From positions 2,125,501-2,189,500 of the forward strand of contig NC_080568.1 of NCBI RefSeq assembly GCF_030253575.1: 64,000 nt of DNA, written 5' to 3'. This DNA comes from Rhododendron vialii. Lineage: Eukaryota > Streptophyta > Magnoliopsida > Ericales > Ericaceae. The notes under the pieces were generated by a model. That model was not told the origin of the DNA. It did not search any database and saw nothing but the letters and a program-made list of their open reading frames with translations. Numbering within the stretch: the stretch's first letter is position 1; each line of letters opens with the position of its first letter. Shown in pieces: positions 4,703 through 62,800 of the stretch. Position numbers and translations under genes: made by a program.

Positions 4703-7018
4703 TTAAGTGGAAGGATCGACCAAACCCGACAAAGCTCGAAATTTATCATGTTTGTCCTTAGACAAAACCTTAGTCATCATATCCGAAGGATTATCATCCG
4801 TGTGAATTTTTTCAAGTTGCAACAACTTCATGTCAAGCGTATCCCGAATCCAATGATATCTAACATCAATGTGCTTTGATCGAGAATGGAAAGTGGAATT
4901 CTTGCTCAAATGCATTGCACTTTGACTATTTTGACTATCACAAAAGAGAACATACCTCGCTTGATTCAAACCCAACTCTTGCAAGAATTTCTTCAACCAC
5001 AACAACTCCTTGCAAGCTTCGGTAATTGCAATGAACTCCGCTTCCGTAGTCGATAGAGCGACACATTTTTGCAATCTTGATTGCCAATTGACAGCTCCCC
5101 CTGCAAAGGTCATCAAGTACCCCGAAGTGGACTTCCGAGAATCAACGTCACCCGCCATGTCGGCATCCGTGAATCCATCCAACACAGCTTTACCATTTCC
5201 GAAACACAAACAAACTCTAGAAGTACCCCGGAGATACCTGAGAATCCATTTCACAGCTGCCCAATGTTCTTTGCCCGGATTTGAAAGAAACCGACTAACA
5301 ACACCAACCGCATGAGCTAAATCCGGCCTAGTACAAACCATAGCATACATCAAAGAACCAACCGCTGAAGTATAAGGAAATTTTTCCATCTCCGCCTTAT
5401 CTTTTTCACTTGTAGGACATTGTTTCGAACTAAGCTTGAAATGATTCGCAAGCGGACAACTAACGGGCTTCGCTTTATCCATATTGAACCTCTCAAGAAT
5501 CTTTTCAACGTGACTTTCTTGAGACAACCAAATCAGCCCCTTCTTTCGATCACGAGTAATTTTCATACCCAAAATTCGCTGTGCCGGTCCCAAATTTTTC
5601 ATAGCGAAGGATTTACTCAATTCCAACTTCAACTCGTTGATCTTCGTAGAATCTTGTCCCATGATTAACATATCATCGACATAGAGCAAGAGAATAATAA
5701 AGTTCCCATTCAGAAACTTTTTCACAAACACGCAATGATCCGAAGTGGTTCTTGAATACCCATGCTCTATCATAAAGGACTCAAATTTCTTGTACCAATG
5801 CCTCGGTGCTTGTTTCAAGCCATACAAGCTCTTATTCAATTTGCAAACAAAGTTTTCCTTCCCTTTCACTTTGAAGCCTTCGGGTTGCTCCATATAAATC
5901 TCCTCCTCTAAATCACCGTGAAGGAATGCGGTTTTCACATCAAGTTGTTCAACCTCGAGATTCAAGCTTGCGGCCATACCAAGAACAACACGAATGGAAG
6001 ACATTTTCACAACGGGCGAAAAAATTTCATCAAAATCAATACCTTTTTTCTGCCCAAACCCTTTCACCACGAGGCGTGCCTTGTACCTTAAATTTTTCCC
6101 ATCATACTTCAATCGGTAAACCCATTTGTTTTTCAAAGCTTTCTTACCCTTAGGTAATTTCACCAAATCGTAAGTGCGGTTGTCAAGCAAGGACTTCATT
6201 TCCTCTTGCATAGCCTTAGCCCACTTATCTTTCTTGTCATGCTCCACGGCTTCTTGGTAGCTCTCAGGCTCCCCCTGTTCCGTTACCGTCACAAATTCAT
6301 CGGGAGAGTACTTTCTTGACGGTTGCTTATCTCTAACGGATCTTCTCAACTCCGGTTGCGGTGGTGGCTCTTGAATTGGTTGCTCCCCCTCATTTTCCAA
6401 CTCAACTTCATTCGGAACATCAACATTTTCACCAACTTCAAGAGGTGGCTGCACATCCTCCTCATTTTCGTCATGTACCGAAGGTGACGGAATTGGCTCC
6501 AAGTCAACGAGATCACTTGCAATTTCTTCCGGTTGATCATCCTTGTCAAAGTCTTTAATTGTTTGACCTTCAAGAAAGACAACATCTCTACTCCGAACGA
6601 TTTTCTTGTCAACCGGATCCCACAATCTATAACCAAATTCTTCATGCCCATAGCCAAGAAAAATGCATTGTCTTGCCTTGTCGGTCTTGCCTTGTCATCA
6701 AGCTTGGACCTTTCATTTTTCGGAATGTGAACAAATGCCTGGCAACCGAAGACCCTCAAGTGATCATAAGTGACATCCTTGCCCGACCAAAATTTTTCCG
6801 GAACATCGCCATTCAAAGGAATCGAAGGAGACAAATTAATCAAATCAACCGCCGTCCTCATTGCCTCCGCCCAAAAAGACCTTGGCAATTTCGCATGTGA
6901 AGGCATGCATCGCATCCTTTCCACCATAGTACAGTTCATCCTCTCGGCGACTCCATTTTGTTGAAGAGTTTTCTTGACGGTCTTTTGGTGTTTAATGCTT
7001 TGACTACGACAAAATTTA
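4703..7018 (-). pseudogene. Copia polyprotein remnant: integrase C-part, RT and RNase H, frameshifted
   Basis: The frame from about 7018 contains QQNGVAERMN, the conserved end of the Copia integrase core including its catalytic Glu, and continues to near 6697. A 14-bp tandem duplication (6669-6682 and 6683-6696) then shifts the frame. The next frame (to the stop at 4703) gives about 640 residues: WDPVDKKIVRSRDVVF, a linker, reverse transcriptase with YVDD (codons at 5683-5672), then RNase H with DADMAGD and STTEAEF. The RT-RNase H part has no internal stop, so the damage visible is truncation plus one frameshift. Family: Copia, Tnt1/Tork-like judging by the motifs. Confidence 0.9.
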
Positions 7019-7040: not shown

Positions 7041-7880
7041 CTTTTGTTTGGTCCAGTTTATTTCGGATTGAATTGTGGCAAACTGAATCGGACCGATTTT
7101 TTATTAATAATGTGGGGTCCAATTCAAGTATACAATAGCTCGGCGACATATGGATGGGCTCACTGATGTAGCCCAAATCGTGGATTGACAAAGTCCAGCC
7201 CACGATAGCTCGGCGACATATGGATGCCCATTGCCCCAGTGAAATTGCTCGAATTGCGTGGAACTTAGCCTACACGATATTTAGTTGTCATCATGGATCC
7301 GGGTTTCGATCTCTTCCGTCCCGAAAACTCATGTGCTTCTGTGTCGAGGGATTTTTCGATCGTTGGATTGTATTATAATTTTTTGGATGGTTAAAGAACC
7401 AGGAGCTTTTCCCTCCCTTGTATGGTTAAAGAATCAAGAACCCTTTGTGGAGTTTTTTTTTTTTCTCACCAAAATTTCGGTGAGATTTTGTGAGAAGAGA
7501 AAGTTGAAGATTTATCTAAATGAGACGGTAAGAAAACCTTTTTTTTTTTCCCTCATCGCTGTGAGAAAAATCACATCTTTTTCTTTTCATTTCTCACCCA
7601 AGTAGCCAAAGGAGCTGTAACGGTGTCATTCCCCCGTACAGTTAGCACGCTGGGTGAGAAACAAGACCCAATGAGAAGTGTCTGCTTCTGCCATGGACAT
7701 ATTTTTCCCAACCCGAAAAACACTCATGCATATATCTACAAATTTTAAAGGTTTTTGATCATTTGCGCGGAGGACTCAAAAGATTATTTTACAATTAATA
7801 AACGGTTTTTATCATTTGCGCAGAACTCAAAAGTGGGCATCACGACGCTGTCGTATACAATCTGTGCATATGGATCTCAA
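7041..7880. other. Gene-free stretch
   Basis: No coding similarity. GATAGCTCGGCGACATATGG (or AATAGCTCGG...) is present twice, near 7125 and 7204, a short direct duplication. T-rich runs are frequent. Confidence 0.4.
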
Positions 7881-7883
7881 TTA

Positions 7884-8097
7884 CTCCCTCCGTCCCATAA
7901 TATTTGTCTGGTCCGCGAACGAGGCCTACAAAATAATGCATTTTTTTTGAGAAAAAATTTAAATTTTTTTCATAAGTTAAAAGAACTCGTTGACATCTAG
8001 TAAATTGTTAAAAAAAATTTCAACTTTTCTTACAAAAATAGTATTATTTTTACGTTTCCGTTTTGCGGACCAGATAAATATTATGGGACGGAGGGAG
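7884..8097. repeat. Stowaway-like MITE
   Basis: A 214-bp element with terminal inverted repeats CTCCCTCCGTCCCATAATAT flanked by TA on both sides. The CTCCCTCCGTCC end and TA target are the signature of Stowaway (Tc1/Mariner-type) MITEs. A close relative with the same subterminal GTCCGC/GCGGAC motif lies at 28042-28277 and a decayed one near 57047. Confidence 0.85.
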
Positions 8098-8514
8098 TAA
8101 TAAATAACCACATACACAAATACACAAATTCCGTATTTGCGTGATCGTAGAAGAGTTGTATGGATCTGCACCCACCCAGGGCAGTTCTGTTCTGAGTAAT
8201 GGCTGCCACTTCAGCTACTCTCACCATTTCTCAATAAGAAAGTGAAGAAAAAAAAAATGAATTTTGGCCACAGAGTTGTCCAATTATTTTGTAACAAAAC
8301 CTTGGACATCTTATGATACTAACAAAAAGTATGATATAAAAGTGCTAGTGGATATTTAACTTTTGTAAGATAAGACAAACCTTGATGTCTTAAAACTTTT
8401 CCAAGGTAGGTTCCCAAGAATCCCCCAATGATTTTAAAACTTTTCTCATGTGATTACAAATTTCAACTCATTACTAATTTCCCGATAACTCGAATTGTTC
8501 AATCTGTAAACTTA
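8098..8514. other. Gene-free stretch
   Basis: AT-rich DNA; nothing recognised. Confidence 0.4.
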
Positions 8515-9452: not shown

Positions 9453-10332
9453 TCTAAAATTAAATCGATCAAATATAAAAAACAAAAACAAATTTTATTT
9501 AAATAGGATAAAACAGTCAAAGTTTTTCATTTTTTTAACGTAGTGAATATAATTTATTTAAACATATATTAGTAATTTTTTGAATGAATAACAGCCATAT
9601 AAATTATAAATTTATCAATGAGATTGTAAAAAGTTTGTGACTACTATTTGAATTTCATCACATGTAGAACGACAAGAATAACACAAGATATCCCAAGAGG
9701 ATCATCCCTCAAACTCAGATCCTGTTAAGCTTCTTTCCAGTCTCGTCCAATTTTGTCCTTCTGTGCTTCATTCTCGGACCCATAACGTTGATCAAAACCA
9801 TTCACTTTTTAGTTTTCGTCGAAAACAATGAGTGCGTTGGAAATCGCTTCGATCGGATTAGTTTGATAGGATTTTTTTAATGCATTAAGTTTCGGACAAA
9901 TGTGATGAAGGGGTTGCAATCATGTGTTGTACACAATTTTTTTTTTACAACATTAATCATGTGTTATTTTTACAACATTAATGGATTTAAAAATTATGTT
10001 AAATAGTATCCGATCAATGTGATTTTTAATATAATCGACACGATCATTTTTGTGAGCCCGAAAAAAACCCACAAATGACTAAAATTGAACTGGACCGGAG
10101 GGAGGCATAATGAACAACTCTCGATCGTTGATTGATGAGATAAGATCCGAGCGCTAACGGCTCAAAAGTGAACAGCACAGCACAGTATTGTCTCCGCAGC
10201 ACCAACCCGAAGTTCTCATGAGAATCTCATCCCTCCCCCATCTCTCTCCTCTCTCCCTCTCTCTCTCCTGAAAGATCAACCCCAAAGACTGCCAGCCAGA
10301 AAGACTTTTCACAGGGCCCTATCCATCTTTCC

Positions 10333-10367
<35 letters not shown>

Positions 10368-10491
10368 CAACCCTCTCCTTGTCTCGTCCTCAAAGTTTTG
10401 TCAATTCTCACTAAAAACCTTTCTCCAAAAAAGCCCTTCACCTTTTGATTCCCTTTCTTCAAAACTTCTCCTTGTCTTTCATTTCCCCATC
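9453..10491 (+). other. Upstream region and 5' UTR of SCL23
   Basis: AT-rich to about 10,080, then increasingly pyrimidine-rich. A (CT)n microsatellite lies at 10334-10364, and CTCTCT tracts around 10,230-10,450 are typical of plant 5' leaders. The start of transcription cannot be placed; no convincing TATA box was identified. Confidence 0.4.
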
Positions 10492-12791
10492 ATGCTACAC
10501 AGCCTAATCCCTCAATCTCCCATCAACTCAAACCCTAACCCCAATTCCCCCACCTCCCCCATCCCAATGAAAGCCGCCGGCGAATCCTCCGGCGACCACG
10601 ACGGCGACGCCTCCAAACGCCATAAAAGTTTCTCCGGCGAGGTTTCAATTTCCGGCCAGAAAGCGGCGACCAAGGAATTGGCGATGAGCGAAGGCGAGAG
10701 CGAGTCGTTACGGCTGTTGGGGCTGTTGCTACAGTGCGCCGAGTGCGTGGCGATGGATAACCTTGACGATGCGGCCGGTTTTGTACCGGAGATATCGGAG
10801 CTGTCGTCGCCGTTTGGATCGTCGGCGGAGCGAGTGGCGGCGTACTTCGGCGATGCGTTACAGGCAAGGAAAATTCTACACCCTCAAGTTTCTAGTAATA
10901 TACTCTTGTAACCAGTAATTATGGTGTCTTAGATTTTCCACAATTGTTGTTCTTGTCGAGAGCAATTTTGTTCACCATCGCCTTGGAACATTCGGTGAGC
11001 TACATTGCAGGTCTTGATTTATCGAAACCGATCATTTTGTATAGCTAGGTTTGTTTGGAGATCAGCTCAGTTGAATAGCAACAAGTACTTGATCAAAAAA
11101 AATCTAATTCTTGGGTGTAGGTAGAAGAACTGGATAAGCAAAATTCGATTTTTCTGATAAGCTCTTACCGATATCCTATCCAATTGAGCTGAATTTTGGA
11201 TGGTGTAAACAAATTGATTCGTACAAAATGAGTGGCTTTAGTACTGAAATGGAACCTGCAACATATCTCACACCGAATGCGGGTAGAGTTACCCTCACCC
11301 AAGAGGTGAATTGCTCGATGCAGGATTTTCTGTGTCGAAAATCCATGTGACTCCGAAGAATTTTCCGGCCATTAGATTTAAAATATTAAAAAAAAACACA
11401 ATCCAAACGGCCGGAAAGACTCTCGGCACAAGGGTTTTCAGCGAAAGAGGAGATTGGACCCGGAATTGCTCTCGTTGTTGCCTCTTTCTTTCATGAGTAT
11501 TCCGTTAAAAGTATGACATGACTTCACTTATTTTCGTATCACACAATACTTCCAATTCTAACGTCCCAATGCAACGATCACTATAATGCTTTTGAACGAA
11601 GTCCCAATTTTTTTTGAAGTAAGAGTAACTTTTAATTTTTCTTCCTATGTATTTATATTGGCCACATTAACGTCTAATTCCTGACTTCGTCCCTAGTGAT
11701 TGTCAGCTCATATATGGCATTGACTTCAAATGCTTTTGGACAAAGTATCAAAATTTTCTTTTGGAAATTATTTTTCTTTTTCTTGGTTTGTATTTACGTT
11801 GGCCGCTCTAACGTCTAATTCCTGGCTTCGTTCCTGTTTACAGGCTCGGATAATCAGCTCGTGCCTCGGTGCCTACTCCCCAATCAACATCAAAACCCTA
11901 ACCCTGGCTCACAGTCACAAAATCTTCAATGCCCTCCAATCCTACAATTCAATTAGTCCGCTAATCAAGTTCTCTCACTTCACCGCCAACCAAGCCATCT
12001 TCCAAGCCCTCGATGGTGAGGATCACGTCCACATCATCGACCTCGACATAATGCAAGGCCTTCAATGGCCAGGACTGTTCCACATTCTAGCTTCCCGCCC
12101 TAAAAAAATCCGATCGATTCGAATCACCGGTGTTGGATCTTCGATTGAGCTTCTTGAGTCCACTGGACGTCGACTCGCCGAGTTCGCAAGTTCATTCGGT
12201 CTGCCCTTCGAGTTTCACCCGGTGGAAGGGAAGATAGGGAACATAACGGACCTGAGTCAACTCGGGGTGAGAGAGGGAGATACTATTGTGGTGCATTGGA
12301 TGCACCACTGTTTGTATGATATAACGGGGAGCGACTACGGGACGTTGAGATTGTTGACTTTACTAAGGCCCAAATTGATCACGACCGTTGAACAAGATCT
12401 GAGTCATAGCGGGAATTTTTTAGGGAGGTTTGTTGAGGCGTTGCATTACTACTCGGCCTTGTTTGATGCTTTAGGGGACGGATTGGGTGCGGACAGCGTA
12501 GAACGGCATCAGGTGGAGTATCAGTTGTTTGGGTGCGAGATTAGGAATATCGTCGCCGTCGGTGGGCCCAAGAGGACGGGTGAGGTGAAGGTGGAGAGGT
12601 GTGGGGATGAGTTGGGTCGGGTCGGGTTTCAACCCGTTTCGTTGGCAGGTAACCCGGCGACCCAGGCTAGTTTGTTGCTTGGGATGTTCCCTTGGAAAGG
12701 GTATACTTTGGTGGAAGAAAATGGGTGTTTGAAATTGGGATGGAAGGATTTGTCTTTGTTGACTGCTTCTGCTTGGCAGCCGTCCGATTAG
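10492..12791 (+). CDS. SCL23: GRAS-family transcription factor, SCARECROW-LIKE 23 type
   Basis: Two exons, 10492-10863 and 11844-12791, give 439 residues. Residues 1-67 are a low-complexity Pro/Asn/Ser-rich leader; the GRAS domain follows: [13 protein letters not shown] (leucine heptad I), [14 protein letters not shown] then VHIIDLD (VHIID at 186-190), the second leucine heptad, [19 protein letters not shown] (PFYRE region) and a final SAW motif ([13 protein letters not shown]). Similarity to Arabidopsis SCL23 is close through the C-terminus; SCL23 acts in the nucleus with SHORT-ROOT and SCARECROW in endodermis and bundle-sheath fate (family knowledge). ATG at 10492 is the first in-frame ATG; Met26 (10567) is an alternative start nearer the family's usual length (about 405). 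The intron uses a GC donor (CAG/GCAAGG) and an ordinary AG acceptor. Confidence 0.92.
11310..11420 (+). repeat. Dispersed repeat R1, copy in the SCL23 intron
   Basis: Contains TTTTCTGTGTCGAAAATCCA, then ATTTTCCGGCCATTAGATTT and AAACACAATCCAA. The same order of blocks occurs twice near 33,010-33,255. No terminal repeats could be defined; nature unknown. Confidence 0.6.
11586..11860 (+). repeat. 144-bp tandem duplication covering the SCL23 3' splice region
   Basis: Copy 1 starts at 11586 and copy 2 at 11730, both with ATGCTTTTG, and both contain ACGTCTAATTCCTG(A/G)CTTCGT. Copy 2 includes the real acceptor (TTTACAG/GCTCGG) and the first bases of exon 2; copy 1 has a decayed equivalent with CCTAG and TTGTCAGCTCAT. 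Confidence 0.75.
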
Positions 12792-28041: not shown

Positions 28042-28277
28042 CTCCCTCCGTCCCATAATATTTGTCCAGTCCGCAATAATATTTGTCCAGTCCGCAAAAC
28101 GAGTACTATAAAATAATGTATTTCTTTCAAGAAAAAATTCAAATTTTTTTCATAAGTTAAAAGAACTCGTCAAGATCTAGTAAATTGTTGAATTTTTTTC
28201 CAACTTTTTTTACAAAAATTGTATTATTTTTACGTCTCTGTTTTGCGGACCGGACAAATATTATGGGACGGAGGGAG
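28042..28277. repeat. Stowaway-like MITE with internal 22-bp duplication
   Basis: A 236-bp element with CTCCCTCCGTCCCATAATAT at both ends in inverted orientation and TA flanks. It is the sister of the copy at 7884-8097 but repeats ATAATATTTGTCCAGTCCGC twice at its left end, the only structural difference. Confidence 0.85.
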
Positions 28278-29003
28278 TATTTATTACTAATGCAGAATGT
28301 ATTGGCAACTATTGTTCGACCCAGAGCAAGTACATCAAACAATGTAAAATGCATTTTTTCTCTATTTTTGAGAGAAAATTCACAAAAACTTGTTTGCATT
28401 AGGTTAGGTAAAAGAAGACGTAAAACCAATTTGTGAATAATTTTTAGTCATTTTTACCTAAGCACTATTCATACTTTTCTTTTTCTATTGTTTCTTTTCT
28501 CTCTCCTTTCTCCTTTCTCCTCTCTTTATTTTTAATATTGGAAAAAGGAAAAAATAATATTTTAATAGATGATAGGTAAAATGGATTGTATTGGTGTAGT
28601 TGTAAAAAAAATTGATAGCTAAAATAAAATTGAGAACTGTTCATAGGGTAGTTTATCTTTACACTGGTAAACTAGCTCTAAGGCGTTTCTGGTAAGGTAC
28701 AAGTTGTGCACAATTTCTAATAGCTATTTGTAGTCAAGTTGTTTCCTCTAAACTAAAAACTGTAGAAAATGTGTTGAATGTATGAGTTTAATATGAACAA
28801 CTTCACAAAAGCCAATAAATTGTAGTGCAAAAATTTTAGTGAAACTTATTTTCCTCTCAATCCTCGCCCTCACTTTTGATAACTTAGAATGATTTTAGAA
28901 GACGCGTTCGCACTTGCACTCCACATTTTGCTTGCACATTATGTGACTAATGGGGAAACACGGATAAAAGCCTTTTCAGGTATCATTCCGTATTTTTCTT
29001 TTA
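28278..29003. other. Gene-free stretch
   Basis: No coding similarity; pyrimidine-rich tract near 28,470-28,525. Confidence 0.4.
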
Positions 29004-38100: not shown

Positions 38101-41100
38101 AGCTTCAGTAACAAGCTGAGAGAGACAGAGAGAAGATCACTATAACAGCTTAAAAGATTTATTTGAGAAAGTAAAGTCAGCTCCAAAACATACCCAAATA
38201 ACACTGGTGGCCATAAGAGAAATGAAAGTTATGTAGTTTTTCCTCCCTACACAGTTGTTCAGCCACTGCAATAAGAGAAACATGATGCAGTTAATTCCCC
38301 CGACATTATTTTGAACATTGTTGCCGCCAACCTTGGCAGATAGTGATATGAATGCTAAAAAAATAGAACATACGCGGCAATGGTGGTCAAATCCATCAAC
38401 ACATTTGTCGCAACTACGACAGTGTTTGCTGAATTTACGCACCTGCAGTACACACACAAAAAGAAGAAGCATCCAGAGTATGTCAAAAGGTTGATACAAG
38501 AAAAGTATATCAAAAAGGCCAAGGATCAGAAACATCTATATTCATAATTGTGATCAGCAACATCTTTGTACATCTTTCCAAGGACAGAACAGAATAATCT
38601 CTCAACCTCTCCCTCTCTCCATTTACTTCCACCAAAACCATGAATATGCAGCAAGAGACGGACACGGAGCGTAACACAGAAAAATCTTTTGGGTTCGACA
38701 TGAAAGATATCTTCTTCAATAAATACTTATCTGCAATTCACTAGGTTCAAAATTGCAGCATGAAATAAATGCATAAATCCACCCGGGGAGAAGAGGCAGT
38801 CAAGCAGACTAAAGTTGTACAATGATAGTGAGGATGGATCCACAAGAGAATGAGAGTGGTGAAGATGGTGCAGATTAGAAGCCATTTCTAAAACACTTGC
38901 AAGACTTGATAAGGTAGTTTAAGTTTTTTTTTTTTTGATCGGCGATAAGGTAGTTTAAGTTGGAAGGCATAATATAGCAATACAGCTCCGGAGACATCAT
39001 GCCTTCAAGTTTTTTGGGATTCAACTGTTGTTTCGATCCCATCTCCTAGGAAACAGAAGCATTCCAGCTGTATAACATCAGCAGATCAATTCGAGTAATA
39101 TTTTTTTTTCAAAAAAAAGTACCTCAGCCTCGCACAATGTGCAGTACAATGCCTCTTCACCTGTGCCTTGTTGATCAGCTAACCCATCTTCTTTGCGGCA
39201 ATCTTCATGTACAAACACTCCACAGCAAATTCCTCCAATACAATCACAAAATGTAGTCTTACTAGGGGTTTCGAACTGCATTTCTGTTCTTCTTTCTTCT
39301 ACTATAGAACCTTTCCTACTAGAGTTTACTCGTGACAAGGAACTTCTAGAAGCTGATGAAGGAGAAGAATGAATCGCAGTGCCGAGTTCGTCAAAATTTC
39401 CAGACTTGGTTGGTAATTCAAGCTTTGAATTACGTACATTCATTATCTCACCGCCAAATTTAAACATAATGCCAGGATCTGCAGGATTGATTGCTGTGGC
39501 CCGCACATAAAGAACGAAAACAAGTAGTGCCTGCAGTACCGTAAGAAAAAGAGCACCATCACATATAGTACTCGTTCCAAATGATTCTGATCCAGAATAT
39601 GGTTTTATCCACTGGTTAAGCATTAACTATTAGGAACAAAGTTACTTTTTACCACATTTTCAGTCCAACTTTCCTTGGTGAAAAATAAACAAATATAAAG
39701 CTCAGAATTAACCACAAAATTATCAATCCTCGTCACTGATTTGGAATTTCTGCAAGGAGCTCCATTTGGGAGGAAACTCAGGTTCTTATCAAGGTTGGCC
39801 TTGGCAATTACAGTTAGCCTCTTGTCTCCACATGGTGGGATAGAACTATGACGGTCAGGATATTATATACTATGTAATTTCTAGCCTAATGCTTTTTACA
39901 AGTTTGTTTTAATCTAGAGTTCTGTAATGTTGAATGAAGCTCTGAAATCCCAAAAGAGACATCACAGTGGCCTACAGTCTCATCTACTTCTAGTGAACTC
40001 GGTTTGAATTCAGTTAGTTTCTTCTCCTTGCCTCATTCAAAATTAAAGAGTACCAATAATCACAGAAACGACAATGTGTAACTCTGATGGCAGTAACTTT
40101 TCCCACTATTGCCATCATAATCGAAATAAAGCATACGATGGATGAAAATTGTATATTACAACGATTTCATGCAAACCTTATGCCACAAATTTACTACCCG
40201 TGTTCCCTTAGAAAAAAGTAGAGCATGGTCCAATCTAAATTTGAGCTTCTGCATAGGGCCTTGATTTTCTTCTAGTGCTCTGAACATTAGTAGGACTACT
40301 CCGAACCACTTCCCAATCCATTATAAGCTATGAAATGCAACTGAAAATAAATGCTGAAAGAAGAACCTACTATTCATGTCTACCTACCACTGGTGAGTAG
40401 AAGGCAACCAAAGCGTACTCCCAAATGCGGCCTCCGAGGAAAGGTGCAAAGAAAGCATAGAACGCAACCACCAACAAGCAATACACTGTTATTGCAACAA
40501 CCTATCAAAGGAAAAGAGAAAATATTAACCAACAATCATTTGCAAATATGAAGACGCAGATATTCATTAAACTGAAACCCAACAAGATGACCAACTCTAT
40601 GTAGCATGTACTAGGTTTGGCACATGCACGTGCCAGTAAACCTAGTAAAAGAAATGTGGTAGGGACTAGGAGAAAAAAGCAAGCAAAAAATCAGGACAAA
40701 ATAACAAAATAAGTTAAAATTGAAACTCCAACTACAGAGTTCTCACAAACAACCTCATGTTTTATAACAAGTTAAATTCATCTTTGTAGGGCATATATGG
40801 TGATTGGACTGATGATCAAGAGGCATTGGAGGAAAGGGAAAGATTAAATTAACGAAGCCCTTGAAGTGTATTGAAGAAGAGTGGAAGAGTGTTATTGCAC
40901 TTGTAAATGGAAAGAAGAAAATTGACCAGAAAGTTCACGATAGGGGTCAGTCCAGGACTGCCTAAGAACTTTAAACGAAATTCGACATAAACAGTGATCT
41001 AGCAGCTATGTTTAGTGCTCACAACCCGAAAACAAATTTCTAATACATTTCTAGATGATTAATTGTATTTTAAGCTAAGAAGAGTCCTCTTTCAAATAAA

Positions 41101-44100
41101 AACAATTTTACATGTTATTTTGTCTACAAACATGTAAAAAGTACCTTCAAGACATTGCAACCGAAAAAAAGCACGGGTAAGACGAGAAAATCTTCTTGGT
41201 GCAAGTCTTGTATCTAACTAGGGACGAGTGATCAAAATAGTTTCTAGTTATAAGGAGTTTTTTGGGAATCTTCAACTACCATAATAGGATGGATTAAGAA
41301 GGATATCAAAATTGATGCTTTAGTGGTGCTAAACCTTACCCAATAAAGACAATACCATGTACCCATGTAATCTCCTGGTGAAAGAAAGTCGTAAATCCGG
41401 TTGAGTTGCGTCATAACCATTGGTTATAGAGAGGCCAAGGTAATGAGTGGACAGGTTAGCTAAGCGAGAAATATCGACCCATCGTCTTAATACGAGAACC
41501 TTCCTATGGACTACATACGTTACTCGACACTGACTAGATTGGGACCATGCCCCCCATGGTTAGTTCTCCACTTCTCCTCATGGTTTTGTTATCGGTTTCT
41601 CCATTGTGCTCTACCCAAATCGCTTTTCCAGATAGCAAAAACTAAAAAATGATGAGTGCATAACCAAACAAGAGAACTAAATAAACAACACTTCATACAG
41701 TCCACGATGTTGTCTCATCAAAGGAAACACAATGGAACAACCTCATCTCCACAAAACACCTAAGAAAACAACCATGTTTACACCCGGAACTAGAGCAACA
41801 TGTAACACCGAAACAAAGCAAAATGCACTAGATAATAGGCATTCTAGTACGGCAGGAATACTAATCTTTACGTCAAACACTACATAGGAGCGATACTATC
41901 TGTGGGTATACGATACACCCCACATCCGGATGCGCCTCCTCCATAAGCTCTTCTGGCGACCCATTCTAGGAGGAACGAGGTCCCCTCCATGATCCAATTA
42001 TGCCCGCACATACTCATTTTGTGACATGAGTATATGCGCGCAAGGGGACATTAATGTGGGTATACGATATATCCCGCATCCGGATGCACCTTCTCCAAGA
42101 ACCCTGCCGGCGACCACCTCCGGGATGAGTAAGGCTTCCTCCACAATACTCATCTCCAGGAGGAGCAAGGCTTCCTCCACAATCATCACCTCCAAGAGAA
42201 GCAAGGCATCCTCCACAATATCCACAATACTCACCTCCAGGAGGAGCAAGGCTTCCTCCACGATCCTCACCTCCGGGAGGAGCAAGGCTTCCTCCATAAC
42301 ACTCACCTCCAGGAGGAGGAAGGCTTTCTCCATGGTACTCACCTCCGGCGGAGCAAAGCTTCCTCCACAAATTATACATTCCGCCCAAGAGGAGACTTCC
42401 TCCACAAACTATGTTTCCGGTGGAGCAGTACCTCCTCCATGAACCTTGCCTCCGTCAAAGCAAACTTCCTCCACAAACTCCGCCTCCGGAGGAATTGCTC
42501 CAGGAACTCTCCACCCATGGAGAAGTGAGGTCACCTTCGGGCACCTCACCTCCGACTTAACACTTTGAAGACTCCACAAATACTTAAAGGCGACTCTATA
42601 CACCGTCCCTAGGCCGGGAGCAGGACCTAGGTATCTCTCTCGGGACCTAAGGAGGAATGTTGTTTGGAGGCTAGAGCAAAGGGTTTGTCAAGGAGGACGA
42701 GCTTGCCTCCGGCGAGCTCTAACTTGACCGGTCCTAGAGAGAGAGGGGGCGTTGACCGCCATCTGACATCTCGGAAGAAGTATCATACCTACCGCCTCAC
42801 TTGGCAAATGATACGGGTCTCCATGTATCACCAAAATAGCCTCTATTGGTTCATTGATTACAAGCTCTAAGGCCTGACTTGGGACTAAAAAAGGAAAGCA
42901 TGTCAACCTCTACTCTGCCCACCAATGGGGAGGAGCCTCACACATGGCTTTCTCATCTCCAAGGCTCATATATAAGGAGAATCACGAACTAGCTATCCGC
43001 ACAATCCGCAATACTGACGCATCCAGGTCAACATTTTCTTGGCCAATCTCAAAGGAGTTCCACAACCTCTTTCACATGGTCCGTCGTTTGAGAAGTAGAA
43101 GCACTAGCGGTGGCCTCCGGCAATGCGTCAAAGCCATCTAACACGGCACTGAGCTCCAGAATCTCTTTGTCCATAAAAGCCACCTCAGATCGTAGGGCAA
43201 GGAACCAATTCTTGCGTCAAGCAACTTTTCCATTCGTTCCAACTTGGCCATTTTTAGCACTTTGAGTGGTTTATCAGTGAAATCTTCATCTGTATGATCT
43301 CATCATCAACGTTGTCGTTGGCGGGTTGCGGGGCTTGCATTTTGGGCTGCGAGGAGAAAAAGAGATGACACCAAGCTATATACATAGTGACAGAAAGAGA
43401 GTGACACGCACAAAGGGAGAGAGATGCGAGAGAGAGACATACCAGAGAGAGGGAGGGAAACGACATTTGGTGTCGACCTAGGGCTTGGAAGACAAGTGGA
43501 GTAATCGACTGGTGTAGTCTCCTAGTCGATAGCTACACCAGTTGATTACTCCACTTGTCTTCCAAGCCCTAGGTCGACACCAGGTGTCGTCTCCCTCCCT
43601 CTGGTATGTCTCTCTTTCTTTCGCATCTCTCACTCTTTGTGCGTGTCACTCTCTTTCTGTTGCTATGTTATGTATATATGCATGTATATGGCTCGGCGTC
43701 ATATCTCTTTCTCCCCGCAGCCCGAAATCTAAGCCCCGCAGCCCACCGGCGACGACGTTGATAATGAGATCATACAGATGGAGGAATATTTCATCGATAA
43801 ACCACTCAAAGTGCTAAAAAAAGCGAAGTTGGAACGAATGGAAAAGTTGCTTGACGCAAGAATTGGTTCCTTAGACATCGAACATGATGCCCTACGATCT
43901 GAGGTGGCTCTTATGGACAAGGAGATTCTAGAGCTCAGTGTCATGTTAGATGGTTTTGACGCATTGCCGGAGGTGGAACTCCTGGAGCTCAGTGTCGTGT
44001 TAGATGGTTTTGACGCATTGCCGGAGGCCACCGCTAATGCTTCTACTTCTCAAACGACGGAACATGTGAAAGAGGTTGTGGAACTCCTGGAGCTCAAGGC

Positions 44101-44799
44101 TGAGATTGGGCAAGAAAATGTTGACCTGGATGCGTCGGTATTGCGGATTGTGCAGATAGCTATCTCCAAGGCTCACGAACTTTAATCTATCAAGCAATCT
44201 GTACGATGAGCTATAACTCAACAGGAAAATCACAACACAAGACCTAAGGACACATCAGAAACAATTTCAAGGATTTAGAACTTAATAGAATAATCTTCAC
44301 AAACAATACAACCAAGTAGGTGGAAAAGAATTAAGACGTAAAACCTTACATTTTGTACCATAACTAAGCATTTCGAATTATACAGACCAAGAAATATGGT
44401 CAAACTTCAGAGATAAAACAAATTCGCAATAATAATCTATGGCCAAACACGTCAAAAAGCTGAAGGCAACCATCAACCATGCCATACAATTTTGAGCAGA
44501 ATTTTTAACACAGGAACGCCCATAACAAGTATTTCAATTCAAACAAATATCAAACAGTACCCTTTCTAAGATGACCCACATAGCAACGACTGAAATATAA
44601 AACAATAATCTTTTCCTCCATTTCTACCATTAACAACCATAACCCAATTCAGCAAACTACTAACTGAAGCAAACCCTGATCAGTAATTTCTAAACAACAG
44701 CCAAATGACAGTAAGATCTGTAAAAGTAGCAGATAGAAAAAGATTGAATCGAACCTGAAAGGTGTGAGCTGGCAACTGCCATCCGTGTTTCCTCACCAT
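35152..44799 (-). CDS. PAT19/PAT20: DHHC protein S-acyltransferase (palmitoyltransferase), PAT19/20 group
   Basis: Nine phase-0 coding exons: 44755-44799, 40388-40501, 39123-39530, 38374-38442, 38194-38265, 37987-38115, 37808-37888, 37355-37555 and 35152-36213, total 726 residues. All introns are GT-AG. It starts [15 protein letters not shown], as in plant PAT19-22. Membrane segments lie at about 16-38 and 45-64, followed by NPADPG (DPG at 71-73), the Cys-rich domain ([20 protein letters not shown]) with catalytic DHHC at 208-211, two more segments (about 223-250 and 275-303), and TTYE at 309-312, the family's TTxE motif. A Ser-rich, probably cytosolic tail follows to the end (FVPGDLK). The enzyme attaches palmitate to protein cysteines at membranes. 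The first intron is 4.25 kb and repeat-filled. The gene faces FAR1 head to head, as from memory in Arabidopsis (AT4G15080 and AT3G22180). Confidence 0.93.
38908..38961 (-). mobile_element. Extremely truncated retroposon with 18-bp target duplication
   Basis: GATAAGGTAGTTTAAGTT occurs at 38908-38925 and 38944-38961. Between the copies, read on the minus strand, are only GCCGATC and 11 A. A short end followed by poly(A) between perfect direct repeats is what target-primed retroposition of a severely 5'-truncated LINE or SINE leaves. It lies in the third intron of the acyltransferase. Confidence 0.7.
41890..42620 (-). repeat. Minisatellite and duplicated leader in the acyltransferase intron 1
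   Basis: Units of about 36 bp based on CTCCAGGAGGAGCAAGGCTT + CCTCCACAAT (variants CTCCGGGAGG, CTCCAAGAGA) repeat about six to eight times between 42,140 and 42,430. Before it, GTGGGTATACGATA(C/T)A(C/T)CCC with CATCCGGATGCRCC is present at 41,900 and again at 42,057. Long open frames here on both strands are by-products of the repeat. Confidence 0.7.
42965..44178. repeat. Large inverted repeat in the acyltransferase intron 1
   Basis: Left arm about 42965-43517, right arm about 43533-44178, separated by about 15 bp. The inner 50 bp of each arm are complementary with one mismatch (GTCGACCTAGGGCTTGGAAG against its inverse). Outward the arms stay clearly alike with indels; the right arm has an extra tandem block of about 57 bp (GATGGTTTTGACGCATTGCC occurs twice). 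The right arm has an open frame (43778-44185) rich in Leu, Glu and Asp, unlike any family I recognise. Confidence 0.9.
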
Positions 44800-45400
44800 A
44801 ACTGCCTAAATATCACAAAAAGATAAGTGGGAAAGCTCTATTCCCACCCAATTCAGGCCTAAAATAGACCCACCATATAAAACCAACCCTAACCCACTTA
44901 CTCAGAGGGAGAGAAAGAGAGTAACCAACCTGTAACCTCCTTCACTGAAAACCCAAAATGCAAAATGCAAAATGCAAAACTCAAAACATCCAAGAAAAAA
45001 CCAAAATTCAACACAAATGAGGCAGAATTTGTTTTGGTGAGAGGGAGAGAGAGAGAGAGAGAGAGAGGGACAAAAAAAAACACCTGAAACCTTTTCACTG
45101 AAGGAAAGAAACAAAATTTGTTTACAGAGTGACTGTAGAAATTAACGAAAAACAAAAAGAAAAACAATTTAAAAATTCCGATGAGTGTGAGGTCATGAGA
45201 AAGCAGGTCAAAGGGGAAAGGGACAAATAGAGATGGGAGACTCGGAGGAGTTTGAGAAAGAATGGACAAAGCTTGGAATAAAGAAAAGACGGCGAATAGG
45301 GTTGGAGAGAGAGGACGCGTGCGCCGAGCCAGTTTGAAGTGGTGCTAGTAGTACGTAGGTTTTACTAGACCAAGAGGTAGTAGCCAAGTAGTGAATAACA
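44800..45400 (-). other. Acyltransferase 5' leader and promoter-side DNA
   Basis: TGATATTTAG/GCAG just before the ATG is acceptor-like, so a leader intron is possible; ACAG/GTTGGT near 44,934 could be its donor. A (GA)n microsatellite is at 45045-45067 (CT-rich on the coding strand, as in many plant leaders). The transcription start is not placed. Confidence 0.35.
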
Positions 45401-46512
45401 TCAATATTGGACCTACTTGTATGTATATTCTCCTCAACTATTGTCTTTTCCCTTTAAATTCCTTCATTTATGGGTTTAACCCTTGTTTTATCTATAGATC
45501 TTAAATCATAAATAAACTTATTTATAACATTAAAAATAGTAGTACGATTCTTCATGCCCAGTTGAATATATTTATTCATTGTTTGCAATTCTACAGATTC
45601 GAATAGAAAAACATCATTAATCTTTGTAACTATTTTGGATTGTGTTGGTTGTTCTGTTATTGTAAAAATGTGTTTTTATGGTAGAAATGTGAAGTTTTTA
45701 CCGTGAAAGTGTAAGAATTCTTAGTGGGAGTGCACGGTCGTTGCTGATATATTTCTTGAAAGAAAGAAACTTGATAGAGATAGGCAAAAGCGGATTGAAT
45801 GGTTATTAAAATCAACGAACGTTGTGATTGATACGGGTAGTGTAAAAAAACGACAAAAAGTTTGGTCGGGTGTGAATGTCCAAGCCTTTTTTAATGTTAG
45901 ATCTATCTCTCAGTACCCCATATGACTTTATTATAATGTTCTCTTCTTTATATTTTTGAAGATTCGCTACTTTTTCTTATTTTTCTGACATTTACAAAAA
46001 TAAAATATCGAGATTTTAGCAGTTTTGTGTCTCCGTCAAGATAAACACCACATCGTTGACCTTATCGCAACTAGGTAATCCCGCTATTAAAAAAAATGAA
46101 CACATCTATCTTTCTTTGAGTAAATAAAGGTGCATTAAACGTAATGAAATTTTAGTTTTGGGCTTTTCAACACATTTACTTTTTATTGAAATGCCAAATG
46201 GTAGCTGCGAAGTTGCAACCAAAGAGGTTCAAAAAATCGAGGATGCCTCCCTACTTCAAGCGAAGGAGTTCGATAAACCCGTAACCAATTGTCTTTCGTG
46301 ATCTTTAATGTGAACACCAATGCTAGCTTGACTTGTATCAACCTTAAAGTCTCCATTCGTACCGAGTTTCATAAAGGCCCATACGGTCGGAGGGACCCAA
46401 ACAACTTGTCAACAAGCTACCTCTTGTTTTTCCAGTGTGATGTCTAGAGTTCGCACTTCTACTTATGGTACTACAAGCATAACCAGACAAACGATATATT
46501 AAAAAAAAGGGG
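45401..46512. other. Gene-free stretch between divergent genes
   Basis: AT-rich DNA with no recognisable coding region. Confidence 0.4.
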
Positions 46513-50709: not shown

Positions 50710-53700
50710 ATGAGTAGAGACATGGTTGATGTTGCAGAAGAAGCACAAAATAGAGATGGAGCTATTGTTGATAACCCGAAAGGGGATGGCATTGTTATTG
50801 ATGGGGATACAGATTTGGAGCCACGTAATGGTATTGAGTTCGAGTCACATGAGTCTGCATACTCATTTTATCAAGAATATGCCAAGTCTATGGGATTTAC
50901 AACATCAATAAAAAACAGCCGTCGCTCGAAGAAATCAAAAGAGTTTATAGATGCCAAATTTGCGTGTTCCAGGTATGGAGTTACACCAGAATCAGATGGT
51001 GGTAGCGGTAGACGGCCGGGTGTGAAAAAGACAGACTGCAAAGCCAGCATGCATGTGAAGAAACGTAAAGATGGAAAATGGTATATTCATGAATTCATAA
51101 AGGAGCATAATCACGAGCTTTTGCCAGCCTTAGCATACCATTTTCGGATTCATAGGAATGTAAAATTAGCTGAAAAGAATAATATTGACATTGTGCATGC
51201 TGTTAGTGAGCGGACAAGAAAGATGTATGTGGAGATGTCTAGACAATCTGCTGGGTATCAAAATCCACTTTTGTCTCTCTCTGATAACAAAAATCTTTGT
51301 AATCTTAAGGATGACGTAAATTCTCAATTTGATAAAGGGAGGTACTTGGCTCTAGAGGAGGGGGATGCGCAAGTTATGCTTGGCTATTTCATGCACGTCC
51401 AGAAGGAGAATCCCCATTTCTTCTATGCGATAGATTTAAATGAAGACCAACGGCTAAGAAATTTGTTCTGGGTTGATGCTAAAAGTAGGAGTGACTACAT
51501 CAGCTTCAATGATGTTGTTTTCTTTGACACTAGTTATATTAAAAGCAACGACAAGATGCCATTTGCTCCTTTTGTTGGGGTGAACAATCACTATCAGTCC
51601 ATGTTACTGGGGTGTGCATTGATCGCAGATGAGACTAAATCAACATTTTCTTGGGTAATGAAGACATGGCTTCGAGCCATGGGTGGACAAGGTCCCAAGG
51701 TAATAATAACCGATCAAGATAAGGCCTTAAAGGGAGCTGTTGAAGAAATTTTCCCAAATGCACGTCATTGCTTCTCTCTTTGGCATGTCTTGGAAAAGAT
51801 CCCTGAAGCTCTTTCTCATGTAATCAGACGGCATGAGAATTTTGTTAGAAAGTTCAACAAGTGCATTTTTAAGTCGTGGACTGATGAACAGTTTGACATG
51901 AAATGGTGGAAGATGGTAAGTAGATTTGAACTTCAGGAAGATAGTTGGATTCATTCCTTGTATGAGGATCGGAAAAAATGGGTGCCTATCTTCATGAGGG
52001 AGACATTTTTAGCTGGAATGTCAAGAACTCAGCGTGCTGAAAGTGTTAACTCTTTCTTTGACAAATACATTCACAAAAAAATTAGTCTGAAAGAGTTTGT
52101 AAAGCAATACGGGACGATTCTCCAGAATAGGTACGAAGAGGAAGCCATAGCTGATTTTGATACATGCCATAAACAACCTGCATTAAAATCTCCTTCACCC
52201 TGGGAGAAACAAATGTCAACAGAATACACGCATGCAATATTCAAGAAATTCCAAGTTGAGGTTTTGGGTGTAGTTGGTTGCCATCCTAGGAAAGAGAGTG
52301 AAGATGGAACAAGCGTTACATTCACAGTTGATGACTGTGAAAAGGATGAAAATTTTATGGTGACATGGAATGAGGCAAAATCAGATGTTTTTTGTTCATG
52401 TCTTCTGTTCGAATACAGAGGTTTTCTTTGCAGACATGCAATGATTGTTCTCCAAATTTGTGGTCTTTCAAGCATACCATCTCACTATATTCTGAAGAGG
52501 TGGACTAAAGATGCAAAGACCAGGCAATCAATGGTTGAAGGAACAGAACGTGTACAAACTAGAGTGCAACGGTACAACGATTTATGCAAGCGAGCCATTG
52601 AACTGGGTGAGGAAGGGTCATTATCTGAAGAGGGTTACAATATTGCATTTCGTGCAGTAGTTGAAGCTCTAAAGAACTGTGTGAATGTTAATAATGTTAA
52701 AAGTGCTGCAGAATCTAGCAGTACTGCACTCTGTCTCCGTGACATTGAAGAAGAGAATCAACGAAGCCTTGCTGTTAAAACGAGTAAGAAAAGGACTCCA
52801 ACAAAGAAAAGAAAGGTTAGTTTGTGTTGGATCCTTGGTCTTCACGTATTCTGCTTATGGTTCAGTGTGATTGAGGGAGAGAATTGCTAAAGAAGACCTG
52901 TTTACATTTCAGGTACAAGCGGAGCCCGGAGGTATACTTGTTGAGCCACAGGACAGCTTGCAGCACATGGTTTGTTCTATTGCCTATTTCGTGACAAGAT
53001 TATTCGTTTAATCAATATGGTTTGGATGACAATAAGGCTTAACATACTCTATCCCTGGGCGCAAACTGCGCACATTGTGAATCCTAACGGACCTACTAAC
53101 TTGGTGAATCCAATAATACTGGTTACCTATATTAGACTTGTCGCTTGAAAAACATATAGTTAATATCTTGGTAGCAGGGATTGTGGGAAATAGACTTGCG
53201 GTTGACACAGGAGTGCGGGTTTGAGCTCCAAAGTGAGATTCGTGATTGGAGCTCGACTCCGGCTAGTGCGATACTTAAATTGCTGTGTTGTTTCTAAAAT
53301 ATAGGAGTATATGTTTTAATTTTTATGATTGCACGAGGACCCAAATATGTAGGGTTTTGAATTCATACTTCTAATCCCTCTAACTTCTCTCCCTCCACTC
53401 TTATCCGTGAAATACCAATATCGCCAATTCTCAATTTATTTGGAGTCTCTTCTGCTTTTCTTACACTCTCCATCGAAAGAGAGAGCAAATTTGAAGATTG
53501 TACACCCATCTATTTCCATTGAATTCCAAACTTGAATTCTCATTAGTCAGTAATCAGTTTATCCCTCTCGGGTAACGTAACTCGATTGTGTTACTTACTT
53601 TAATACTTTAATGTTTTTCAAACGTGACAAATGGTAGTGTTCACGTGTTATTGATAGGTGCATATATTTGAAAGCCGAGTAAACCTTGTTTTTTCTTCCC

Positions 53701-57046: not shown

Positions 57047-57258
57047 TATCTCCGTCTTAAAATAAACTCTCTGCAAAACGAAGACTTAAAAAATAATACT
57101 ATTTTTACAAGAAAAAATTTTAATTTTTTTCTTAAATTAAAAGAACTAATGAATATCTAGTAAATTGCTGAATAAAGTTTGAATTTTTCTTGAATTTTTT
57201 TTATCATTTTTTAGTTCTTGTTTTGCGGACCAGACATTTATTTGGAGATAAAGGGGTA
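57047..57258. repeat. Decayed Stowaway-like MITE
   Basis: The interior (GCAAAACG...GTTTTGCGGACCAGAC) matches the copies at 7884 and 28042, including AAAAGAACT(A/C) and ATCTAGTAAATTG; the CTCCCTCCGTCC ends have eroded. Confidence 0.7.
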
Positions 57259-59842: not shown

Positions 59843-59883
59843 ATGGAGCTTCCATGAAAAAATATCTCCACTATGGAGATTGA
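59843..59883 (+). promoter_or_regulatory. Two short upstream ORFs at the FRS2 start
   Basis: ATG at 59843 opens a 4-codon ORF (MELP, stop 59855-59857). Its stop overlaps a second ATG at 59854, which opens a 9-codon ORF (MKKYLHYGD) ending at 59883, past the main ATG at 59873. A scanning ribosome using the second one would bypass the main start. Confidence 0.6.
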
Positions 59884-62800
59884 TCTTGAGCTGCCTTCTG
59901 TCCAGGAGGACAAATTAGATACTGTGTCAGATGCAAATATTGGTCATGCTACAGATGTACTTCTTGTTGGAGAAGAGGAGGTAAATTCTCCAACAACTAG
60001 AAATGGTGCCAAGGGACTGGGACTAAACGCAGGTAAAAACATCAGTAGAAGTGGGGAGGGAGTGGATGAGGATGCTCTTGGAGTGGACACTTCTGGCAAG
60101 GAGAGCAAGAGTTATGAGCCCCAAAGGGGTTTGGAGTTTGAATCAAAAGAGGAAGCATATTCCTTTTACAGGGAATATGCTAGGTCTGTGGGATTTGGCA
60201 TTACAATAAAAGCAAGTCGCCGGTCCAAAAAGTCAGGCAAATTCATTGATGTAAAAATAGCTTGTTCTAGGTTTGGCAGTAAACCGGATTCATGTACAGC
60301 TGTTAACTCACGATCATGTCCTAAGACAGACTGTAAGGCAAGTATGCATATGAAAAGAAGGCAGGATGGAAAATGGTTTATATTTGGTTTTGTAAAGGAG
60401 CATAACCATGAAATTTGTCCCTCTGACTTCTATTATGCTCTCAGTGGAAGGGGCAAGCAGCCTGGTATTGTTGCTTGTCAAAAGAAAGGACTGCAGTTGG
60501 CTTTAGATGAGGTAGATGTACAAGTTATGTTTGAATTTTTTATGCTTATGCAAGATGAGAATCCTAATTTTTTCTATGCAATAGATTTGGACCATGAAAA
60601 ACGTATGAGAAACGTGTTTTGGGTTGATGCCAAAAGCAGACATGATTACAGCAAATTTTGTGACGTAGTCTTCTTTGATAGCTATTATATTAGGAGTAAA
60701 TATAGAGTCCCCTTTCTGCCTGTCATTGGGGTGAATCATCACTTTCAGTTAATGTTGCTTGGATGTGCATTGGTTGGGGAGGAAACAATGTCAACTTTTG
60801 TGTGGTTGATGCGGACGTGGCTTAGAGCTGTGGGTGGTCAGACTCCTAAAGTTCTTGTTACTGACGAAGGCAAGTCACTGGAAGAAGCTATCACAGAGGT
60901 GTTTCCCAATACACGGCATTGTTTTTGTTTATGGAATGTGCTGAGAAAAGTTCCTGAAAATCTAGGCCACGTAGTGAACAGGCCAGAAGTTTTCTGTAGG
61001 AAATTTAACAAATGCATTTATCGATCTTGGACACAAGAAGAGTTTGAAAAGAAATGGTGGAAAATGATGGATAAATTTGAGCTCAGGGAAGATGAATGGC
61101 TTCAATCACTTTATGCAAAACGTACAAAGTGGGTTCCTGCTTATATGAGTGGTACATTTTTGGCTGGATTGTGTACAGGTGAACGTTCTGAATGCTCATC
61201 ATCCTTGTTTGACAAGTACTTGCAGAGGGAGACTTCATGTAAGGACTTTATGGATCGATACAAACTATTTTTGCATGACAGGTCTGAAGAAGAAGCCAAA
61301 GCTGATTGCGAAACACATCACAAATCACCCACATTAAGATCTCTCTGTCCTTTTGAGAAGCAGATGTCTACTGTTTATACACGTTCCATATTCAAGAAAT
61401 TTCAGGTTGAGGTTTTGGGAACAGATGCTTGTAGGGTGCAAAAAACATATGAAAATGAGGCAGTTGTAACATATCAAGTCGATGATTTTGAAGAGCAGCA
61501 GAGTTTCATTGTGGCATGGAATGAAGCAAACTTACACGTATCTTGTTTGTGTCGTTCATTTGAGTACAGAGGTTTTCTTTGTAGACATGCTTTAATCGTT
61601 CTACAAATGTCTGGTGTTTCTAACATACCTTCTCGCTGTATACTACGACGATGGACAAACGATGCAAATATCAGGCCATCCAGTAGTGAAACATCAAGTA
61701 GGTTTAGTTATAGGGTCCAACGTTTTAATGATCTTTGTAAACGAGCAATTAAATTGGGTGAAGAGGGGTCTTTGTCTCAGGAAAGGTACAATATTGTCAT
61801 TGATGCTCTACAAGAAGCCATGGAACATTGCGTGGGTGTGAACGCTTCTGTTAGGAGTGTTTTAGAGCCTAACATGTCGGCTTCTCAAGGTTTCATCAGC
61901 ACTGGGGAAGAGAATCAAAGCGATAGTTTGGCCAAAGCATCTAAGAAGAAGAAAATACATAAGAAGCGAAAGGTAAGCGGAGGCTCAATATTTAGGTATG
62001 CCTTTGCTATAACCATGTCTGATGTTCTGTGAAGGGATGGAATGCTCAAATTTGATCAAGTCTATATACTGTAGGTACAAAGTGAGACTGAAGTAATAGC
62101 TAGTCTGGTGCAAGACTGCAACTTGCAGATGGTTTGTCACATCTTAACGCCGTTGACTCAAATTATCTGCAATAACGTGTTCCAATGGATTTTGATATAA
62201 TCCATATATGACCTCCATTTATTTCGGCATGCTTGTGTGTAGGGGATGCTGGACTCCGGAGCACACATTGTTGACAACACTTGTGTTCCTCAACAGCATG
62301 CGCCAGGGATGGTATGACTGTATCAGTCTAACTCTCTCTTTTTTCCGAATGACAAAATAAATTGTATTAATCAACATCCTAACACTGACCTCAACATATT
62401 GCAAATTGAATATTTTATGTATTTCATTGAGGGGTGAGTCGGTGGCCACTGGTTTGGCGTTCGTTAACTCAACCTACTAATCTCTAGGTTGTGGGTTCCA
62501 CTATTGACAACCACTTTGTGCATTTAATTGCATAGCATAGCTTTTTACCCAATCCACTCCTCCCAGATACCCATTATTAAGTAGTAACTGGGTTTAGGAA
62601 GTAGGGATGCTCAACAGAGTAGGTTGAGATTGGTACCTCATCGTTCACCCTTCACTGTAACTTATGATTCTGTAAGTTTCTTTGTGGATCTCTAAATTTC
62701 GTATTGATATTTGTCACAGGGACAAATACACTCTTCATCTTTGATTCACAATGGCTATTATAGCAACCAACAGGGAACGCAGGGGATGGTATGGCAAATA

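Follow-up and report, generated by a model that had tools for sequence, protein, structure and literature searches.

The first intron of a DHHC S-acyltransferase gene of Rhododendron vialii carries a large inverted repeat, made of two copies of an apparent gene fragment that stand head to head and are both damaged. The locus adds a further example to a known class, that of decayed inverted duplications of gene fragments within introns. It is undescribed among the literature matches listed, which is no claim of its being unpublished. The repeat is probably a neutral insertion of an inverted duplication into intron 1, the RNA of which, if transcribed, would feed Dicer-like enzymes and would have no maintained target.

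The inverted repeat and its host intron

The main elements of the locus are given below, with positions counted in the window (the whole stretch of 64,000 nucleotides that was analyzed).

40502..44754, minus strand: intron 1 of the DHHC S-acyltransferase gene, 4253 nt, host of the hairpin (GT donor, AG acceptor and in-frame exons)
42991..43517, minus strand: left arm, 527 nt, a copy of the gene fragment that has its 5' end at the spacer and runs leftward (alignment to the right arm, 487/527)
43518..43532, no strand: spacer or hairpin loop, 15 nt (repeat search)
43533..44161, plus strand: right arm, 629 nt, a copy of the gene fragment that runs rightward (repeat search, BLAST and arm alignment)

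The sequence-only reading of this DNA had claimed a large inverted repeat with a single mismatch in its inner 50 bp and a loop of about 15 nt, and each of these claims was confirmed. The repeat search placed the inner arms at 43382-43517 and 43533-43668 with 15 nt between them, and the inner stretch 43533-43582 is mismatched only at 43543. When 41501-45500 was compared to the window by BLAST, 43114-44162 paired with 43973-42990 of the same locus on the opposite strand (1097 columns, 78.1% identity with gaps counted, E reported as 0.0). In a gap-aware alignment of 42990-43524 to 43525-44162, 487 of the 527 ungapped columns are identical (92.4%); the spacer accounts for three of these columns. 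Between the arms there are 40 substitutions (32 transitions and 8 transversions) and 9 gaps, two of which lie inside the spacer. The longest perfect match between the arms measures 46 bp, while perfectly matched 21-mers start at 82 alignment positions and perfectly matched 24-mers at 56. Outside the locus, no 18-mer of the hairpin repeat recurs in the whole window, and BLAST found no second copy of the unit there.

The suggestion that the repeat could fold into a long hairpin was likewise borne out by structure prediction. For the host (minus) strand of 42990-44162, the predicted fold has an energy of -913.2 kcal/mol with 1032 of the 1173 bases paired, against a mean of -339.5 kcal/mol (sd 8.0, minimum -356.8) for 20 dinucleotide shuffles of the same strand. 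The predicted fold of the plus strand reaches -948.7 kcal/mol. The inverted repeat is real and chance is excluded by far.

The hairpin had also been assigned to intron 1 of an acyltransferase gene, with which both predicted splice sites and the DHHC reading frame agree. Exon 1 (44755-44799) comprises 15 codons and is followed by the GT donor. Exon 2 (40388-40501) is preceded by the acceptor TTTGATAG, a pyrimidine-rich AG, so that the predicted intron falls between codons 15 and 16. These two exons join in frame with 39123-39530, the DHHC exon comes next, and the five joined exon pieces match the DHHC palmitoyltransferase family (PF01529, E=6.4e-20). As in a sirtron, the hairpin is located within an intron, here one predicted from the sequence. 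Since intron 1 is bounded by both splice sites, the hairpin would be part of the pre-mRNA and would be co-transcribed if the acyltransferase gene is expressed.

Several other features were recorded in the window. Open frames on the plus strand at 10222-10908 and 11724-12788 match the start and the remainder of a GRAS domain, respectively, and may be parts of a single gene that an intron or an insertion interrupts. A copia-type reverse transcriptase frame of 663 codons occupies 4706-6694 on the minus strand (RVT_2, E=9.2e-81). The plus-strand frames 50710-52887 and 59858-62029 are of the FAR1 type, with FAR1, MULE and SWIM domains; they are 69% alike over 1.3 kb of DNA and are, as read from their domains, a diverged same-strand pair of transposase-derived genes. 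A family of short MITE-like repeats is represented at 7860-8121, 28076-28279 and 57070-57242 (75-86% alike, two of them palindromic; BLAST and direct comparison).

The apparent gene fragment and its decay

The arms share a common internal organization, of which the following parts could be located.

43347..43442, minus strand: left-arm stretch of 96 nt that is probably an intron of the copied gene, GTATGT...CTCGCAG (splice-like ends in the sequence)
43604..43720, plus strand: right-arm stretch of 117 nt that is probably an intron of the copied gene, GTATGT...CCCGCAG (splice-like ends in the sequence)
43338..43340, minus strand: ATG, probable start codon of the copied gene, retained by the left arm only (arm alignment; left-arm ORF)
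43778..44185, plus strand: right-arm open frame, 135 codons long, entering the flanking repeat (ORF list; no Pfam family)
43928..43981, plus strand: in-frame stretch of 54 nt, in the right arm only (BLAST and arm alignment)

Outward from the spacer, each arm consists of a stretch ending in CTG, followed by GTATGT..., a pyrimidine-rich GCAG and a reading frame. Each arm looks like the 5' portion of a gene, with an untranslated exon, an intron-like stretch of about 100 nt and the start of the coding region; the part before the intron-like stretch is probably untranslated. Because the intron-like stretch with its splice-like ends is present in both arms, a retrocopy of a spliced mRNA is disfavored as the source, and the fragment was probably copied as genomic DNA. 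Since each arm seems to comprise the complete 5' part of a gene, intron included, a parent gene should exist or have existed.

The damage takes a different form in each arm. The left arm reads ATG CAA where the right arm has ATC TAA (43727-43732), and in comparison with the right arm three gaps, of 4, 16 and 11 nt, shift the left frame. In the right arm the frame stays open for 150 codons after ATC TAA (stop-to-stop version, 43733-44182), and its one indel is a multiple of 3. Of the 54 extra nucleotides in this arm, the first 46 nearly copy 43982-44027. The 18-bp sequence TGGAACTCCTGGAGCTCA occurs twice in the right arm (43974-43991 and 44079-44096), with one copy at the junction of the 54 extra nucleotides, as if by a template jump. 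It had been proposed that both arms carry a coding-like fragment with the same peptide of 20 residues. A coding-like fragment is indeed present in both, but only the right arm carries the complete peptide; the left-arm version runs for 15 residues before the 16-nt gap shifts the frame.

The right-arm frame had no Pfam match, either as the 135-aa form (E 10) or as the 150-aa form (E 0.001), and neither did the left-arm frame or the frame in the array of the left flank. Two short PDB chains matched residues 25-66 of the right-arm frame (Sc-apCC-2-KLHL20-3 and -4, E 0.027 and 0.056); these matches are weak and were taken as chance. Among viral contigs, 28 stretches fit a pattern, of which none was confirmed, and a further search gave 0, as is expected of plant sequence.

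The raw divergence of 7.6% (K2P 0.081) indicates that the arms have long been separated. With substitution rates of 6.5e-9 and 1.5e-9, the K2P distance corresponds to a rough span of about 6 to 27 My. Local gene conversion was considered and set aside: the longest run of 46 bp is ordinary for 40 differences in 527 columns (simulated P for a run of at least 46 = 0.68).

Whether the frame has been under selection was judged from the pattern of changes, the polarity of gaps and substitutions being deduced with no outgroup. The 16 arm differences within 43778-44162 are distributed 2/6/8 over codon positions 1/2/3 (p=0.17), and addition of the 8 differences at 43729-43763 gives 7/7/10 of 24. Over 112 gap-free codons, dN/dS amounts to 0.53 (7.5 synonymous and 13.5 other changes). 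The 150 open codons of the right-arm frame and its sole indel, a multiple of 3, were counted against a neutral relic. At most, the right-arm copy would be under weak or past coding constraint. The damage in each arm, together with the lack of a significant codon-position bias, speaks for a relic over a maintained device.

The transitions between the arms are unevenly distributed over cytosine contexts, with 17 at 87 CG/CHG sites and 15 at 184 CHH sites (Fisher p=0.009, in a small, post hoc test in which the site context follows the left arm if a C or G stands there and the right arm in all other cases). For comparison, four further pairs of repeats or genes in the window give 5/26 vs 12/41, 44/144 vs 106/438, 1/5 vs 5/29 and 5/32 vs 4/27. 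Against these pairs, the CG/CHG rate of the hairpin is ordinary and it is the lower CHH rate that stands out. The prevalence of transitions (32 of 40 substitutions) and their excess at CG/CHG over CHH sites fit past cytosine methylation of the arms, to which they lend weak support; nothing in the pattern is specific to siRNAs.

Ends of the probable insertion and competing explanations

The following elements flank the arms.

42955..42990, plus strand: flanking direct repeat, left copy of 36 bp, adjoining the left arm and containing TATATAAG at 42969-42976 (8-mer scan and TATA scan)
44162..44181, plus strand: flanking direct repeat, right copy of 20 bp, without the 16 bp that hold the TATA box (8-mer scan)
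41880..42954, no strand: G+C-rich, repeat-like stretch left of the hairpin, its left limit approximate and its LTR-like character judged by eye only (composition; array)

The outer arm ends are symmetrical to the base (AGCTATC / GATAGCT). The two copies of the direct repeat are identical save for 16 bp between two TCA triplets, which are absent on the right. A direct repeat adjoining both outer ends gives the unit the appearance of an insertion, accompanied by a target duplication whose right copy was perhaps later shortened by a deletion. Since the right-arm open frame continues through the 20-bp repeat to its stop, it is also possible that the repeat was originally sequence of the copied gene, itself duplicated to the left side.

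Such an arrangement calls to mind a DNA transposon of the foldback or Mutator-like type, with long terminal inverted repeats into which a piece of a gene was taken up, in the manner of a Pack-MULE. The exactly symmetrical arm ends with a direct repeat adjoining both, the presence of terminal inverted repeats as such and the intron that the captured piece seems to retain all agree with this origin, yet it is considered unlikely. Target-site duplications are 8-11 bp long for Mutator-like elements and 2-8 bp for other DNA transposons, and a duplication of 20-36 bp is too long for either. In addition, the window holds no second copy, and the ends of the unit are not known to resemble those of any transposon. 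For the neutral insertion, repair of a staggered break offers a different route, as this has been proposed to create duplications in plants (Vaughn and Bennetzen 2014, cited in PMC8355091). Combined with template switching, which would yield the mirror copy, such repair would fit the origin of the unit; more generally, the insertion may have arisen by template switching or foldback. That the inverted repeat merely reflects a read folded back on itself during assembly has practically no probability. Long-read assemblies do contain palindromic chimeras, but these have near-identical arms; the 40 substitutions in 527 columns and the 9 gaps found here therefore rule out an assembly mirror.

It is quite improbable that the hairpin is transcribed from a promoter of its own rather than with the host gene. 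Such a promoter could be sought in TATATAAG, which lies on the plus strand 14 bp before the left arm, points inward, would place the transcription start close to the base of the hairpin, and is one of only 2 matches to TATAWAWR on the plus strand of 40501-44800. A TATA match is weak evidence, though. The flank on the left has a repeat-like character and might supply a retroelement promoter; its G+C content is 0.45-0.59 when taken in steps of 150 bases, compared with 0.30-0.41 at 44251-45000. Within it, a CTCC-rich tandem array of about 7 copies of 36 bp is found at 42115-42370, and a 61-bp piece (41901-41961) is repeated at 42055-42115 (BLAST). The array is possibly the terminal repeat of a retroelement. 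A search for primer sites gave no LTR identity for the flank: three primer-site-like patterns matched with 3 to 5 mismatches, and the best initiator-Met primer sites in 41001-45000 have 4 mismatches on the plus and 3 on the minus strand.

A further alternative concerns function. The hairpin could be an active trans-silencer, with siRNAs that repress a surviving parent gene, as OGI does with MeGI or the Populus ARR17 repeats with ARR17. Working precedents are reported in persimmon and Populus (PMC7048303, PMC9636151), the arms look like a gene fragment including the 5' UTR and the first coding exon, and perfect 21-mers begin at as many as 82 positions. Against this stand the damage in both arms and the lack of a parent gene in the window, where no 18-mer matches outside the locus. 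The sequence-only reading, in which such RNAs could target a parent gene, is plausible in its first half, the intronic hairpin built from coding-like fragments. Repression of a parent gene in trans may occur, but that the hairpin acts as such a silencer today is doubtful, more so than a transposon origin. Still less is to be said for a natural intron-hairpin RNAi cassette, in which expression of the palmitoyltransferase would automatically yield siRNAs against a second gene and couple the two; the probability of this coupling is slight.

Expected small RNAs and relation to known systems

For the neutral insertion in intron 1, the expected course can be outlined. Plant Dicer-like enzymes cut long stems. 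Upon transcription of the host gene, the intron RNA would fold into an interrupted duplex of about 500-520 bp, which these enzymes could cut into RNAs of 21-24 nt. The main effect would be methylation of the hairpin repeat itself. If the host gene is expressed, the insertion should give rise to small RNA to some extent and become methylated. In plants, gene copies in inverted orientation have been reported to yield siRNAs and methylation (PMC13213937 for Arabidopsis and PMC9636151 for Populus), the inverted-repeat DNA of hairpin transgenes is described as invariably methylated (PMC9263138), and introns that yield siRNAs have been reported as well (Chen et al. 2011, RNA 17:1012, cited in PMC5545994 and PMC4597857). 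Should the locus give rise to small RNAs, it would represent a natural counterpart of the intron-hairpin constructs used for gene silencing in plants, and a test case for when an inverted duplication turns into a regulator and when it simply decays. In its present state it documents decay, with two damaged arms that are still expected to pair.

With respect to known systems, the proposed origin of plant miRNA genes has an inverted copy of a transposable element or pseudogene piece as its first stage (PMC3237417), which the present repeat resembles. It differs from miRNA genes in its arms of more than 500 nt, and Rfam gave no match at the gathering score in the whole window, hence no curated miRNA family. 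The sirtrons of Chen et al. 2011 (via PMC5545994 and PMC4597857) are likewise intronic hairpins and candidate substrates of DCL2/3/4. A precursor of this type needs no RNA-dependent RNA polymerase, which would hold here too. Unlike the sirtrons, the present hairpin looks like an inserted copy of a gene fragment, and its small RNAs are a prediction.

Other relatives are found among the inverted repeats of gene copies. OGI of persimmon is such a repeat and is termed a pseudogene in the abstract of its description (PMC7048303); in contrast to the intronic hairpin, OGI is Y-linked and is reported there to repress MeGI via small RNA. The partial ARR17 repeats of Populus (PMC9636151) are inverted partial gene copies as well, two of which form a hairpin, but for these 24-nt siRNAs and methylation of the target are reported, both of which are hypothetical for the present locus. 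In Arabidopsis Cvi, VIM4-VIM2 (head to head) and PAI1-PAI4 (tail to tail) are also inverted copies with RNA capable of forming a stem-loop (PMC13213937). In contrast to the fragment in the acyltransferase intron, those are neighboring genes of one family at their own locus, for which siRNA data are reported in the same source.
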